This document shows, one piece after another, positions 1 to 5,341 of a stretch of DNA of 64,000 bases (the first letter of the stretch is position 1; each line of letters starts with the position of its first letter). The stretch comes from Psychrobacter faecalis (lineage in GTDB: Bacteria; Pseudomonadota; Gammaproteobacteria; Pseudomonadales; Moraxellaceae). Location: the NCBI RefSeq assembly GCF_016107575.1, contig NZ_JABAST010000007.1, positions 1 to 64,000 on the forward strand. The letters run 5' to 3'. The translations under genes were made by a program, and so were the position numbers. A model generated the notes under the pieces. The model had not been told where the DNA came from and did no database searches. It saw nothing but the letters and a program-made list of their open reading frames with translations.

Positions 1-30
1 TAGATTAGTGAGGTGCTCTTCTTTTTTCAA

Positions 31-636
31 TCACTTTCGAAGTTGAGAGTGGGGTCTATTGAGGTTATTTCTATAAAACAATAGCTCAGCCAATTCTGAC
101 TCATTACTGATAATATCCGCCAGTGTATAGCGCTCAAGGACGTTGATAAAAGCAGTCAGCGCTTCAAAAAATACCTGCTTTAACTGACAGACAGGGCTAA
201 TGATACAGCCTGATTTGACCACCGCACTGGCCTCTTCGTCGATAAGCGTCAAAGCCAAATCTTTAGCGACCCCGCTGTCTTCACTAATAACCGGACTATT
301 CGCCGTGCTATTAGTATTAGCATCGGGTTTGGCAGTTACTAATAAATCAGTCGAAAAACATTCAACCAAATTAAAATCTGGCTCAATTTGCTTAATCAAT
401 ACGCCCAAATTGATATCCTTTGGCCGACAAGCCAAGCGAATACCGCCATTTTTACCGCGTACGCTGTCGATATAACCAAGCTGCCCCAGTTGGTGGATAA
501 TCTTGGTCAAATGACTTTTAGAAATATTGTAGCTGTTGGCAATATCACTGATGTTTGCCAATAGATGCGGCTCAGGCTTAATCGCCAAATATATTAATGA
601 GCGCAGCGCATAATCACTATAGTTGGTCAGTCGCAT
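31..636 (-). CDS. nsrR: Rrf2-family NO-responsive repressor, NsrR-like
   Basis: This is an iron-sulfur transcriptional repressor of the Rrf2 family, most like NsrR, which releases DNA when its cluster is nitrosylated. The N-terminus MRLTNYSDYALR and the winged helix (about residues 1-75, with GKNGGIRLA in the wing) are typical. Asp8 is the residue that acts as the fourth cluster ligand in [4Fe-4S] NsrR. Cluster cysteines are Cys93 (VECF), Cys144 and Cys150 (C-x5-C), followed by an NsrR-like QLKQ...YTLADI helix. At 201 aa the protein is longer than usual (about 145 aa). The excess is a Ser/Asn/Asp-rich insertion between Cys93 and Cys144. A GGGGAG ribosome site precedes the ATG. It lies 73 bp downstream of nnrS on the same strand, so co-transcription and autoregulation through the operator upstream of nnrS are likely. 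NsrR identity is inferred from cysteine layout and neighbour; another Rrf2 member is possible. Confidence 0.85.
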   Translation of the reverse strand: MRLTNYSDYALRSLIYLAIKPEPHLLANISDIANSYNISKSHLTKIIHQLGQLGYIDSVRGKNGGIRLACRPKDINLGVLIKQIEPDFNLVECFSTDLLVTAKPDANTNSTANSPVISEDSGVAKDLALTLIDEEASAVVKSGCIISPVCQLKQVFFEALTAFINVLERYTLADIISNESELAELLFYRNNLNRPHSQLRK

Positions 637-709
637 TTTTTGCGCTCCCCTGTTTGAGATGAATATTAACTTGACGTTGTCAAATAACGTTGATCACGTA
701 AAAACCTTA

Positions 710-1963
710 TTAACCAAATAAGCCATCTGGCCGTTGGCGTGCCAGCATCGGTAAATAACTGATGCAAAATAGTGCAAAACAAGCAATCCAAGCACCTTGC
801 GCCGTCATAATCCATAACAAGTAATGGCTCATATCGACTAATGGTAAAAATACTCGACTGACAAACGCCAGAACCATCAGTGCAAACATGAGATTGACGA
901 TTTTGGGCGGTTGATGGATACTGCGACCTGTATGACCGAGCGATACCCGCGCCATCATTGCCACTGTCATCATACCAACGCCAGAGATGGATAATCCATG
1001 GACGGCGATACTGTGGCTGTAACCAAGCCATGGCTGTAGTGCGTATAACACAAAACTCAGACACATCCCTAAAAATGCGATATATAACGACCATAGAAGC
1101 GGTTTTTGCCAAATGCCGCGATGATACCAGCCGGCCAAGCGCACGATGTTGACCACTGCGACCCCAAGGGCACTGATGGTCAGCAAGTATTTATTGGGGT
1201 AAAATAAATCAACGAGGAAAAAAACAAAGAAAAACAGTAAACTTGCGATATCTTGTGCTTTATTATTACGTACTGTGACTTCTTCTTTTTCACCTTTAGC
1301 GTTTGGAATACTTAAACCACGCTCGATAAAGAACGGCACCACACGGCGACCAATGGTCAACACTAGGCCGATAATCAGGTAAAAGCCTAAATAGATACCT
1401 AACTTGGTCAAATTCATATTGGCGCTTATAATGCCCCAATAGCATAGCGCATTACCGAGTGTTAGAAGCGTAAGCTTGGCTAAAATACCCATCTGCTTAT
1501 ATTGCTTCACTTGTAGCACTGCCCGAGAAATCACAAATGCCATCCAGCCGACAAACAATAAATCAAATATCGCCGCGGCATATAGTAAGGCTACCCCACT
1601 ACCAGCAACCGTGATACCGAGGCCGAAAGCTATCCAGCCCAAGCGTGCCAGCAACCAACACATAAAGATACCGAGCAGCTTATAACCATGTGGCATCATC
1701 ACGCCCGTCCAGGTTTTCACTGCGGTCAATAAGAAACCCGCCACGACTGCCAGCGCATAGCCATAAATCATTTCATGACCATGCCAATACAGCGGATTTA
1801 ACGTTTGCGCATCGATATCCGTGTGTCCGGTAAACACAAACGCCCATAGAGTCATTGTGATAATGGCAAACAAAGCCGCGGCACTAAAAAATATCCGAAA
1901 GCTCAGGTTAAGAATAGGATGCGGCGAGCTTGGCGGTTTGGTAGGTAAATTAATTGATTGCAT
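710..1963 (-). CDS. nnrS: NnrS-family membrane protein, NO stress
   Basis: NnrS proteins are haem- and copper-containing polytopic membrane proteins that protect against nitric-oxide-derived stress; the exact chemistry is not settled. This 417-aa protein has the family look: a short cytoplasmic N-terminus, FRIFFSAAALFA at the first membrane segment, the histidine motif YWHGHEMIYGYA (about residues 59-70) and roughly twelve hydrophobic segments to the end. Length is normal for the family. It is the promoter-proximal gene of a probable nnrS-nsrR unit, with a palindromic NsrR-type operator about 40 bp upstream of the start codon. That placement, plus an Rrf2 regulator directly downstream, supports NO-controlled expression. 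Confidence 0.9.
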   Translation of the reverse strand: MQSINLPTKPPSSPHPILNLSFRIFFSAAALFAIITMTLWAFVFTGHTDIDAQTLNPLYWHGHEMIYGYALAVVAGFLLTAVKTWTGVMMPHGYKLLGIFMCWLLARLGWIAFGLGITVAGSGVALLYAAAIFDLLFVGWMAFVISRAVLQVKQYKQMGILAKLTLLTLGNALCYWGIISANMNLTKLGIYLGFYLIIGLVLTIGRRVVPFFIERGLSIPNAKGEKEEVTVRNNKAQDIASLLFFFVFFLVDLFYPNKYLLTISALGVAVVNIVRLAGWYHRGIWQKPLLWSLYIAFLGMCLSFVLYALQPWLGYSHSIAVHGLSISGVGMMTVAMMARVSLGHTGRSIHQPPKIVNLMFALMVLAFVSRVFLPLVDMSHYLLWIMTAQGAWIACFALFCISYLPMLARQRPDGLFG

Positions 1964-2002
1964 AACAGACTTCTTATAGTCAAAGTTAGAAGGTATGTCT
2001 TA

Positions 2003-2025
2003 AAGATATATTTTAAATGAATGTT
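2003..2025 (-). promoter_or_regulatory. NsrR-type operator upstream of nnrS
   Basis: The site is AAGATATATTT, one central T, then AAATGAATGTT: an 11-1-11 arrangement in which 8 of 11 positions are symmetric. It closely resembles the known gammaproteobacterial NsrR operator (two AAGATGCATTT-like half sites). It lies 40-62 bp upstream of the nnrS start, in promoter position. The remainder of the intergenic stretch 1964-2358 is AT-rich and holds the promoter region of the small plus-strand gene; I see nothing else definite in it. Confidence 0.7.
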
Positions 2026-2358
2026 ATACATAATACAACTGAAACTATATAACTGCTACAGTAGATTAACGCACCTATTATATACACCTTTGACTCATAT
2101 AACGCGCTACACTAGATAACTTATATTATATTAATCTATATTCTATCATTTATGCTAAACCACGGCTATTAAATAACTTATCGCAAATGACTGATATCGG
2201 CGAATTTACGGCAGTATAAATGTAAATTCTAAAAGCGACGCGCTACGAACTAAGCGCTAAAGTAGCCAGCACCTTGATATTTGCTTTCATTATTACCATC
2301 ATCAATAGTGACCACGGCTAATTTGACTACATAAATGGTCCACCTTGAGGAGAATGTC

Positions 2359-2595
2359 ATGACAGAAGCACATGCGCCAATTGAAAAACGCAAAATTGTT
2401 AATCGTTTTTTAACCCTACTGACCGAACAACAACCACAAATGTATTATGCCACGACATCAGAGGTCGCGCGCAGTATCCATACCATGATTAAAGAGCACG
2501 CCAATCGCTTGACGGTAGAAGAGCAAGCACTGACCCGCCGTATGTCTATCGAGGAAATCGAAGCGTTATTGGGTTTTCATACTAAGCAACATTAG
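2359..2595 (+). CDS. Small conserved-looking protein of unknown function
   Basis: I do not recognise this gene. It encodes a 78-aa, mostly helical, charged protein with no signal peptide, membrane segment or cysteine. The start is the ATG at 2359 because TTGAGGAGAA sits directly in front of it; an in-frame ATG at 2335 would add eight residues but lacks a ribosome site. The C-terminal half (LTRRMSIEEIEALLGFHTKQH) looks like a small helical hairpin. A strong terminator follows at 2633, so it is a single-gene unit. It lies between the NO-response genes and the aldehyde dehydrogenase locus, which does not reveal its role. Good ribosome site plus terminator make it likely to be real. Confidence 0.65.
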   Translation: MTEAHAPIEKRKIVNRFLTLLTEQQPQMYYATTSEVARSIHTMIKEHANRLTVEEQALTRRMSIEEIEALLGFHTKQH

Positions 2596-2632
2596 AATAA
2601 TCAACTTTTAGAGTCACGACATTATTAGTAAG

Positions 2633-2663
2633 AAAAAAGACCACCATCAAGGCGGTCTTTTTT
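2633..2663. terminator. Bidirectional rho-independent terminator
   Basis: AAAAAAGACC and GGTCTTTTTT form a stem with a short GC extension. It serves the small plus-strand gene ending at 2595 and the minus-strand aldehyde dehydrogenase gene ending at 2709. Confidence 0.85.
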
Positions 2664-2708
2664 CATAGCAGTACGTTTAATTAAATACGTCTAACCAAAA
2701 TACGTTGA

Positions 2709-4199
2709 TTAGAACGGATACTCACGTGGTTTATGCTGTACTGAAATCCAATGCAAAGCGGTAAATTCTTCTAGTATCCACTCACCATTAAAGCGTCCAA
2801 TACCAGAGTTTTTCTCGCCACCGAACGGCGCATTACTTTCATCATTGACCGAGATATCGTTGATATGGGTCATGCCCGCTTTGATACCGCGCGCAAAACG
2901 CAGACCTTTTTCCATATCTTGGGTAAAGACCGCACTCGATAGACCATACATAGAGTCATTGGCAATCGACAGCGCATCATCTTCATCCTTGGCACGAATG
3001 ATACCAACCACAGGGCCAAAAACTTCATTACAGGATAAGTCCATCTCACGCGTCACTTCACTAAAGATATGCGGCGGCACCACCTGACCTTTAATCTCAC
3101 CACTTAATAGCATCTTAGCGCCCTCTTTCTGCGCTTTGGCGATTTTTTCTTGTAGCGATTCGACTTGTTTTTTATTGATGATAGGGCCAACTGCGGTGTC
3201 TTCTTTGCTAGGATCACCGACATTTAGGGTTTTTACGTGAGCGAGGAAACGCTCAACGAAATCATCATAAATCTCATCTTCGACAATGATGCGATTAATC
3301 GCAATACAGATTTGTCCTTGGTGCAGGAATTTACCAAAGGCTGCTGCTTTTACCGCTTGTTCGATGTCGGCATCTTTTAGCACCACAAATGGGCTATTAC
3401 CACCAAGCTCAAGCGCCACTTGCTTTATATAATCGCCGCTGTTAGCAAGCTCGCCGATATGTTTGCCAACCGCCGTTGAACCAGTAAATGACACCAAGCT
3501 TGGAATATCGTGAGTAACAATCGCATCGCCAATCTCGCTACCTGCGCCAACGACCACGCTCAGCAGCCCTTTTGGCAGACCCGCTTCTTCAAATATTTTT
3601 GCCAATAGTAGACCGCCAGTAATCGGCGTATCACTGGCAGGTTTGAGCACCACGGCATTACCCAAGGCTAACGCAGGCGCAATAGAACGCTGGGTTAAAT
3701 GTAGAGGAAAGTTCCATGGGCTAATCACAGCAATCACGCCCATCGGCTCACGATAAATAAAGTTCTCTTTACCCGGCGTATTAGAAGGGCGAATCTCGCC
3801 ATGCACGCGGTTAGGAAAAGTAGCCGCTTCAAGCGTAATCGCACGCGCACTACCAAACTCGACCATGGCTTTAATACGGGTACTGCCCGACTCTTTAATT
3901 AACCACTCAACGATTTCTTCTTGACGCTCATCAAAAATATTGACAACTTTATATAATACCGCTGCACGCTGGGCTGGCGTTTGCTTCGCCCATTCTGCCT
4001 GTGCTTTGGTTGCCGCCTGAAAAGCTTCATCGAGCTGTTTATCGGTTGCTTGCTGAATCTCTACCAAGGTTTCGCCATTAAAAGGATTGGTATCGGTATT
4101 GACGCTATCGTCTTGACCTTTTTGCCAAGTACCGGCGATATATTGCAAATGAAAATCGTTATACGCGCTTTGTTGAGTATGCTTAGTATCGGTTGACAT
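2709..4199 (-). CDS. NAD(P)-dependent aldehyde dehydrogenase
   Basis: This is an aldehyde dehydrogenase superfamily enzyme (496 aa, full length) that oxidises an aldehyde to the acid. The cofactor-binding segment [10 protein letters not shown] is near residue 160, the general base is Glu264 in ALELGGNSP, and the nucleophile is Cys298 in GQICIAINR. The sequence type is close to benzaldehyde/vanillin dehydrogenases, but the substrate cannot be fixed from sequence. It is transcribed divergently from the NemR-like regulator gene, with a shared 539-bp intergenic region containing one of the two operators. It therefore probably belongs to the same electrophile or aldehyde detoxification regulon. 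Confidence 0.85.
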
Positions 4200-4738
4200 A
4201 ATTATCCTTATTTATTTTAAGTTTGTTTTTAAGAGCCATTCAATTAAAAGTATTTTCTAGATAGAAACTTATATAAAACACCCCACTCTCAACTTATTTT
4301 TCTAAGGTATTGGTTTACTTACTTTTTAAAATTTCAGTTAAAACAATTAGAATTTTAAATTCTATAAAAATCAAAAGCCTACGATAAGTTGAGATTGACG
4401 TATAAAACCCTAGGTTGTATCACTTTATAAACAGTCGGCACAACTATTGTGCAAAAAACTTGCTGCTCAACGTTGATAAAAGGTTTCATTGATAAAAGAA
4501 TTCATTTATAAGTTGCGTTAATAAATAAAAGCCTTCTCACCAAACGTAACTTGCTAGACGACTGGTCTAATGCTACCATAGTAAGCACAAAAACAAGAAT
4601 AATTTATCATTATGTATTGTTGAGAAAACGTAACGCTTAAAACTATTATCAAAGTAGTGCTCTCAACCCTGGTTTCTATTTAACTGATTTCCATTCGATT
4701 ACATAACCAAATAATACCCTAAGGAGAACATCCTCTTC
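4200..4738. other. Divergent intergenic region with several inverted repeats
   Basis: This 539-bp gap separates the minus-strand aldehyde dehydrogenase from the plus-strand NemR-like gene. Besides the operator at 4555 it contains an 8-1-8 palindrome at 4348-4364 (TAGAATTT, T, AAATTCTA) and an 11-bp inverted repeat, TCTCAACTTAT at 4287-4297 and ATAAGTTGAGA at 4384-4394, that encloses it. No open reading frame is convincing. A role in controlling the dehydrogenase gene is inference. Confidence 0.5.
4555..4569. promoter_or_regulatory. Probable NemR-like operator 1
   Basis: The sequence is TAGACGACTGGTCTA, that is TAGAC-N5-GTCTA. A copy differing at one base lies at 5441, in front of the next gene. 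The copy here lies between the divergent dehydrogenase and regulator genes and could control both. Two matched palindromes flanking a TetR-family gene are strong circumstantial evidence for its operators. Confidence 0.7.
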
Positions 4739-5341
4739 ATGTCTGATATTACCACCCCTATTCCATCCGATACGAAGGCGCTTCTGTTAGCGATAGGTTA
4801 TAAGCTTATTGCCCAAAAAGGTTTTACCGCTGTCGGTATCAAACAAATACTCGATACTGCCGGTGTACCTAAAGGCTCGTTTTATCATTACTTTGCTTCA
4901 AAAGAAGCTTTTGGTGAAGCCATCATCGAGCATTATTTTGCTAACTATAAAAGGCGCTTAGAGTCGATTGCAGCTGAAGATATTAGCGCGCAACAAAAGA
5001 TTTATAACTATTTTCAGAACTGGTATGACACCCAGCAAAACGGCTGCGACCATGAAAAATGCTTGGTAGTTAAGCTCAGCGCTGAAGTGGCTGATATCTC
5101 AGAAACCATGCGTAAAGCCTTGTATTCAGGTTATCAGCAAACTGTTAATTGGATTGCTGAGCAAATAAAAGCCGGCTGGGCAGATCGTTCAATTCCTCAC
5201 CCTGATAATATCGCCGCTGAAAGTATGGCTAAGCGTTGGTACTTTGCGTGGTTAGGTGCCAGCTTAATCGCTAAAATCAGTCAAACCGATACACCATTGG
5301 CAGAAGTTTGGCTGATGACCACCTCGCAACTTGGTCGCTAA
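4739..5341 (+). CDS. TetR-family electrophile-sensing repressor, NemR-like
   Basis: The protein (200 aa) has a TetR helix-turn-helix at about residues 15-60 (TAVGIKQILDTAGVPKGSFYHYF) and a C-terminal half that reads like E. coli NemR. The segment CLVVKLSAEVADISETMR matches the NemR stretch around its redox-active Cys106; the equivalent here is Cys108, with a further Cys103 nearby. WLGASLIAKIS near the end supplies Lys179, equivalent to the NemR lysine (Lys175) that forms a sulfenamide with that cysteine. NemR responds to N-ethylmaleimide, methylglyoxal and hypochlorite; the same chemistry is inferred here. The genes that follow (aldehyde reductase, enone reductase, DJ-1 protein, GST) fit that role. 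Operator-like palindromes lie before and after the gene. The AcuR branch of the family is an alternative but fits less well. Confidence 0.8.
   Translation: MSDITTPIPSDTKALLLAIGYKLIAQKGFTAVGIKQILDTAGVPKGSFYHYFASKEAFGEAIIEHYFANYKRRLESIAAEDISAQQKIYNYFQNWYDTQQNGCDHEKCLVVKLSAEVADISETMRKALYSGYQQTVNWIAEQIKAGWADRSIPHPDNIAAESMAKRWYFAWLGASLIAKISQTDTPLAEVWLMTTSQLGR

Follow-up and report, generated by a model that had tools for sequence, protein, structure and literature searches.

The nsrR-like gene of Psychrobacter faecalis encodes a regulator of the Rrf2 family in which a 50-residue loop separates the first two of three presumed cluster cysteines (C93-x50-C144-x5-C150). Long loops of widely differing length occupy this position in all NsrR proteins of Psychrobacter and its Moraxella-type relatives that we collected, and the presumed cluster ligands are invariant in these proteins. 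In the main Psychrobacter clade one short hydrophobic segment of the loop is under strong purifying selection, and the remaining loop residues change rapidly. The gene was analyzed within a window consisting of the first 64,000 nucleotides of contig NZ_JABAST010000007.1 (Table 1).

Table 1. Features of the nsrR–nnrS region; positions are those of the window.
Feature	Position	Strand	Remark
nsrR-like gene (Rrf2 family, 201 aa)	31–636	-	ends 30 bp from contig edge
nsrR stop codon	31–33	-	
nsrR start codon	634–636	-	
Asp8 codon	613–615	-	presumed cluster ligand from partner subunit, as in S. coelicolor NsrR
Cys93 (C1) codon	358–360	-	invariant in 99/99
Inserted loop, residues 94–143, 50 aa between C1 and C2	208–357	-	low model confidence
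Conserved segment LALTLIDE, residues 127–134, within loop	235–258	-	
Cys144 (C2) codon	205–207	-	
Cys150 (C3) codon	187–189	-	
nnrS, upstream neighbor of nsrR	710–1963	-	Pfam NnrS, E 2.4e-98; order kept in relatives
Predicted NsrR-type 11-1-11 operator AAGATATATTTTAAATGAATGTT	2003–2025		39 bp upstream of nnrS start codon; conserved in relatives

Identity of the protein and distribution of the loop

The gene is located at the extreme end of its contig, in a genome of 3.08 Mb. Its product has an Rrf2 domain (Pfam PF02082, E 2e-31; score 109 bits, cut-off 30 bits), and among the eight NCBIfam families that match it the NsrR model ranks first, with 132 bits in a match that is also split by the loop. 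This score is under the 182-bit cut-off of the NsrR model, but that cut-off says little: in a sample of 274 genomes of the class not one had a protein that attained it, among 14 control genomes a single one did, and the threshold apparently singles out proteins closely related to E. coli NsrR. A fold search with the AlphaFold model returned the NsrR–DNA complex 7b0c first, and since RsrR, CymR, and IscR ranked close behind, the search indicates the family and not the member.

In IscR, His107, located three residues after C3, is described as the fourth cluster ligand; the corresponding position is Lys in 90 of the 91 Psychrobacter proteins and Gln in the remaining one, and this IscR feature is thus absent. 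RsrR, whose C1–C2 spacing is probably longer than usual, has His33 and Glu8 as cluster ligands. Here position 33 is Ala, Val, or Ser and position 8 is Asp, so that the RsrR ligand set is absent as well. All 91 Psychrobacter and all eight Moraxella-type proteins have Asp8, Arg12, Glu85, and the three cysteines, and the last two cysteines are spaced x5 in every one of them. The gene order nnrS-nsrR, on the same strand, is also found in relatives, and the two genes probably form one operon. A small open reading frame on the plus strand (window 2335–2595) diverges from nnrS across the operator region and has no Pfam match from position 2359 on. A search of window positions 1–4800 with Rfam gave nothing above threshold.

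The original prediction, an NsrR-like sensor with conserved Asp8 and an insertion exactly between cluster ligands, agrees with these data: the Rrf2 domain, the best NCBIfam match, the neighboring nnrS, and the operators described below all point to NsrR, Asp8 is present in the window protein and in 99 of 99 long-loop proteins, and residues 94–143 are bounded by two invariant cysteines. The predicted separations of 50 residues between C93 and C144 and of five between C144 and C150 are those encoded in the minus-strand reading frame.

We searched 105 Psychrobacter genomes and obtained 91 full-length nsrR genes from 90 of them, G077 contributing two. In three more genomes nsrR is broken or truncated by a contig end (L092, L094, and L095), and 12 of the 105 gave no nsrR match at 1e-15. 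Apparently broken copies occur in two genomes (L092 and L095; G102 and G005), and the two copies in G077 belong to the same nsrR–nnrS stretch present on two contigs (L086 and L087). The C1–C2 spacing is long in all 91 genes, ranging from 15 to 57 residues with a median of 33. All 91 proteins have 93 residues from the start through C1 and 26 from C2 to the sequence YTLAD; length variation is confined to the loop and the C-terminal tail (C2 to end, 44–58 residues). The eight Moraxella-type genes, from two genera of the family (g8 and g14), encode loops of 23–61 residues. The insertion, for which a check of lineage conservation had been proposed, is thus found throughout this lineage. In one Psychrobacter protein (L027), KVGCVISPV around C2 is duplicated in tandem, which creates an extra cysteine.

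Elsewhere the spacing is short, at 2–10 residues in 120 of 120 NsrR-like proteins examined. A short spacing is customary in NsrR but does not define its function. It is x4 in five of five homologues of the same-family genera g2, which we take to be Acinetobacter, and g5, and 6–7 residues in seven of seven NsrR homologues of other genera of the family. E. coli NsrR likewise has C-x4-C, and measured against this spacing the insertion has the 46 residues originally predicted. The spacing is 6–10 in 58 further relatives, mostly from Bacillales and Marinobacter, a set that may overlap the others. It is 2–9 in all 50 sequences of a class survey (47 measured by script and three by eye), some lower-scoring members of which may not be NsrR proper; 48 of the 83 matching genomes supplied these sequences, and the other genomes were covered by inspection of match spans. 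One other clear excess length was seen in the match spans of this survey: L255 and L256, from another family, have a Thr/Ala-rich insertion near residues 19–40 and keep C-x6-C-x5-C. A metagenome-assembled genome labelled Alcaligenaceae (L155) encodes an NsrR with a 31-residue loop; nnrS and an operator-like site are neighbors of the gene, and the case reflects either a wrongly binned contig or a transfer.

Long cluster loops are not general among the Rrf2 proteins of Psychrobacter, as the IscR paralogues of the genus have none: their spacing is C94-x5-C100-x5-C106 in 21 of 21 cases (the window genome and 20 others). Psychrobacter IscR resembles NsrR in having three cysteines and differs from it in having Arg in place of Asp8. 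The IscR tails do vary in Psychrobacter.

Quick trees calculated from 138 columns, with the loop left out, separate the long-loop proteins from the others by a single branch (SH-aLRT 95). The trees contained 153 rows, or 94 after twelve of the longest branches had been dropped and Psychrobacter thinned to 31 rows; both are unrooted, with many forks open. We consider with good confidence that the long loop has a single origin, in an ancestor shared by the Psychrobacter and Moraxella proteins. The same trees place the Psychrobacter/Moraxella NsrR nearer to Bacillaceae than to the g2/g5 NsrR of its own family, at poor resolution, and a closer tie to the latter was not rejected in an AU test (p = 0.097). 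Tandem Repeats Finder detected no tandem repeat in window positions 1–700. Across the genus, short tandems occur in five of 91 loops (L012, L016, L041, L074, and L076), in 20 of 91 body stretches of the same length, and in none of 91 codon-shuffled loops; slippage is thus a possible general origin of the insertion.

Predicted operators

Upstream of nnrS, NsrR-type palindromes were scored against an E. coli-type 11-1-11 consensus; a site required at least 16 of 22 matches and a distance of no more than 130 bp from the nnrS start. Such a palindrome is present at 71 of 75 Psychrobacter loci, compared with five of 1500 shuffles. The first pattern, used for the window site, had been written after that site was seen, and its chance estimate is therefore not independent. 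The 75 loci are those of 94 that have nnrS and at least 62 bp of upstream DNA (19 were dropped), and they include L092 with its broken nsrR. In 44 of the 71 the palindrome ends 37–40 bp from the nnrS start codon. Among the four loci that have no qualifying site, two have a site just past 130 bp and one has a site scoring 15.

Patterns built from the nnrS sites, and hence independent only for the other genes, matched five places in the P. faecalis genome with at most two mismatches, while a reversed control matched none; a sixth place has three mismatches. The five predicted operators precede nnrS, hmp (flavohaemoglobin), norB (two sites), and nirK. We take the norB product to be a quinol-type NO reductase, because it is a single chain of 768 residues, and a multicopper oxidase/cytochrome c gene to be nirK. 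Just before the operator of a nirK-type gene lies a transposase-like gene (L220:389–1315; Pfam HTH_38 over its cut-off, rve under it), which we presume to be IS30.

The operator also tracks the regulator. Among 28 Psychrobacter genomes, namely all 12 without nsrR and 16 chosen from those with it, the operator is present in 16 of 16 with nsrR and one of 12 without (Fisher p = 5.6e-7, ancestry ignored). The one exception, G081, is 77% complete, and its nsrR may therefore be missing from the assembly. Ten of the 12 genomes that have no nsrR lack nnrS too, so that joint loss of the regulator and its targets explains part of this co-occurrence. The two genomes that keep nnrS without nsrR (G074 and G104) have no operator. 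That the operators are conserved and occur together with nsrR speaks against a loop that disables the regulator, and to judge from these sequence patterns the long-loop protein is very probably functional.

M. catarrhalis NsrR (L157) resembles the window protein in having a long loop, of 36 residues, invariant ligands, and operator-like sites, which score 18 and 17 of 22 before a copper-oxidase/cytochrome c gene of nirK type and a norB gene, respectively. Its loop cannot be aligned to that of the window protein, and the conserved segment is not recognizable in it. The gene order also differs, being nirK-nsrR-norB, with no nnrS found in the stretch examined, as against nnrS-nsrR in Psychrobacter. 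M. catarrhalis NsrR has been called a repressor and connected with the denitrification genes (PMC3699543). Two other Moraxella stretches (L151 and L156) contained no operator-like site within about 4 kb.

Variable and conserved parts of the loop

Ser, Thr, Asn, and Asp make up 40% of the window loop, compared with 22% of the rest of the protein. Across the genus these residues account for 35% of the loops and 22% of the body, and hydrophobic residues for 22% and 41%, respectively; the loop is net negative in 69 of 91 Psychrobacter proteins. AlphaFold modeled the window protein, from a 42-row alignment, with a confident core and block-mean pLDDT values of 41–54 in the loop. A relative whose loop has 34 residues was modeled from 38 rows, again with a confident core, and the loops of the two models span block means of 35–54. 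Low pLDDT alone is no proof of loop disorder, since the C2-to-C3 stretch is also poorly modeled and both models are of long-loop proteins. The loop ends are kept, as C-F or C-L at the start and x-C-x-I-x-P-x-C-x-L-K at the end.

Loops of the main Psychrobacter clade contain one segment of the approximate form L-P/S-x-T-L/F-I-D/E-E, located 9–13 residues before C2 in most proteins. Within the main group (VECF, 72 genes), 64 loops match the pattern [LI]x[VILM]x[LFV][IV], whereas shuffled loops of this group match it 0.6 times on average and three times at most. The pattern ends nine residues before C2 in 44 main-group loops and 11 residues before it in the window protein. As the pattern was derived from the same data, we also scanned all 7-residue windows, unselected. 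In the loop-length classes 31, 33, and 34, non-synonymous change dips to the range of the body at L-P-[IV]-T-[LF]-I-[DE] and climbs on either side, staying fairly low up to C2 in class 33. The dN/dS ratio is 0.034 for the segment, 0.039 for the body, and 0.50 for the remaining loop (228 related pairs from 55 genes, which share ancestry, with gaplessly alignable loops only). The flexible loop that was originally predicted accordingly stands as regards composition and model confidence, but not as a uniform stretch. The loop may, as was also predicted, affect cluster exposure, nitrosylation, or partner binding.

The segment is confined to part of the lineage. Of 58 distinct main-group loops, 56 contain a 6-mer in which four or more residues are hydrophobic, against 16.8% of shuffles. 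A comparable 6-mer occurs in one of 17 distinct loops of the second Psychrobacter group (8.6% of shuffles), where the pattern [LI]x[VILM]x[LFV][IV] matches two of 19 loops, and in two of six distinct Moraxella-type loops, near the shuffled rate of 29.6%. A segment common to all long-loop proteins is unsupported, as it is missing in the second group and ill-defined in Moraxella-type loops. It is therefore not needed for NsrR function in general, and from its distribution it looks like a feature of one clade and not the reason for the origin of the loop.

These patterns bear on whether the loop has a function at all. The turn may simply tolerate any flexible stretch, with a length that drifts nearly neutrally and a loop that does nothing. 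The 91 genes have 26 distinct loop lengths, a tree of 31 Psychrobacter rows calls for at least 25 length changes, and this variability, the high dN/dS outside the segment, and the absence of a segment common to the second group or the Moraxella type are what such drift would leave. Strong constraint on the main-clade segment and its excess of hydrophobic 6-mers over shuffles are not, and no loop in the 91 genes is shorter than 15 residues, though all proteins examined elsewhere manage with 10 or fewer. A functionless spacer is thus a serious alternative, though not the likelier one.

The loop may instead be a docking site for another protein, such as an adaptor, a partner regulator, or a protease, in which case the segment would act as a hidden degron and set the turnover of NsrR after NO. 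A conserved hydrophobic segment within a fast-evolving, flexible stretch resembles a linear motif, by analogy, and the segment has no defined place in the AlphaFold monomer models, where its pLDDT is mostly below 50. Hydrophobic loop segments can equally be internal braces, however, no partner is known, and the segment is limited to one clade; we regard docking of another protein as slightly less probable still than a functionless spacer.

Proposed role of the loop

The S. coelicolor NsrR structures (PDB 5n07 and 7b0c) share with the window protein the fold, the three cysteines, Asp8, Arg12, Glu85, and inverted-repeat operators. As described for that protein, the cysteines and Asp8 bind the cluster, Arg12 pairs with Asp8, the cluster orders the C93–C99 turn to meet the DNA backbone, and Asn97, a residue of the turn, forms a bond with the main-chain carbonyl of Gly37, close to the recognition helix (PMC5411485). 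The window protein has a 50-residue loop in place of this C93-x5-C99 turn, which touches DNA. With a turn of the C93–C99 type gone, its link to DNA and the recognition helix has probably been rewired, and by analogy the DNA-contact role of the turn may have been lost in the loop.

We lean toward a reading in which the protein is a working, NO-responsive NsrR, its turn replaced by a long disordered loop that is pinned by the cluster, with the main-clade segment docking as a lid or brace. NsrR would be an NO-responsive Fe-S repressor of nnrS, hmp, norB, and nirK whose short C1–C2 turn was swapped, most simply once, for the loop. The three cysteines, together with Asp8 from the other subunit, would most likely still hold a [4Fe-4S] cluster; the conserved loop ends argue that the same ligands were kept, and C93, from its invariance, is likely still among them. 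The loop would bulge as an omega-like excursion, pinned shut by the cluster. In the main clade, we infer, the hydrophobic segment would dock near the cluster or the dimer interface, and loss of the cluster to NO would free it. That the segment docks on NsrR itself is the tentative part of this reading. A more elaborate form, in which the [4Fe-4S] cluster closes a 50-residue ring from C93 to C144 and thereby hides or braces the segment as a cluster-gated latch, is doubtful. If it were true, destruction of the cluster by NO would open the ring, the freed segment would alter DNA binding or recruit a partner or protease, and the sensor would be tunable through the length of its loop.

In another reading, C93 no longer binds the cluster and the protein works in the manner of RsrR. 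RsrR of Streptomyces venezuelae (6hsd and 6y42), which shares the Rrf2 fold with the window protein, is described as holding a [2Fe-2S] cluster by two Cys of one subunit and Glu and His of its partner; such a set evidently suffices in an Rrf2 protein, and the distance to C1 makes a loss of C93 conceivable here. A cluster of the RsrR type is nevertheless very improbable, given the invariance of C1 in 99 of 99 proteins and of Asp8, Arg12, and Glu85, and the Ala, Val, or Ser at position 33. Finally, an assembly artefact or decaying gene, which the location at the contig edge might suggest, can be dismissed in view of the homologous loops in many independent Psychrobacter genomes, the open reading frames, and the low dN/dS of the body.

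NsrR itself is already known, and the M. catarrhalis repressor is reportedly the subject of a 2008 paper in the Journal of Bacteriology. We have not seen the variable loop and its segment described before: a literature search covering mostly papers available without subscription returned no description of such a loop in Psychrobacter or Moraxella NsrR or in Rrf2 proteins.

In the S. coelicolor structure, as described, the short C1–C2 turn couples the state of the cluster to DNA contact. Its replacement, most simply once, by loops that are 15–61 residues long, with ligands and operators kept, provides a natural series on the role of the turn, and the conserved segment is a precise target for mutation.
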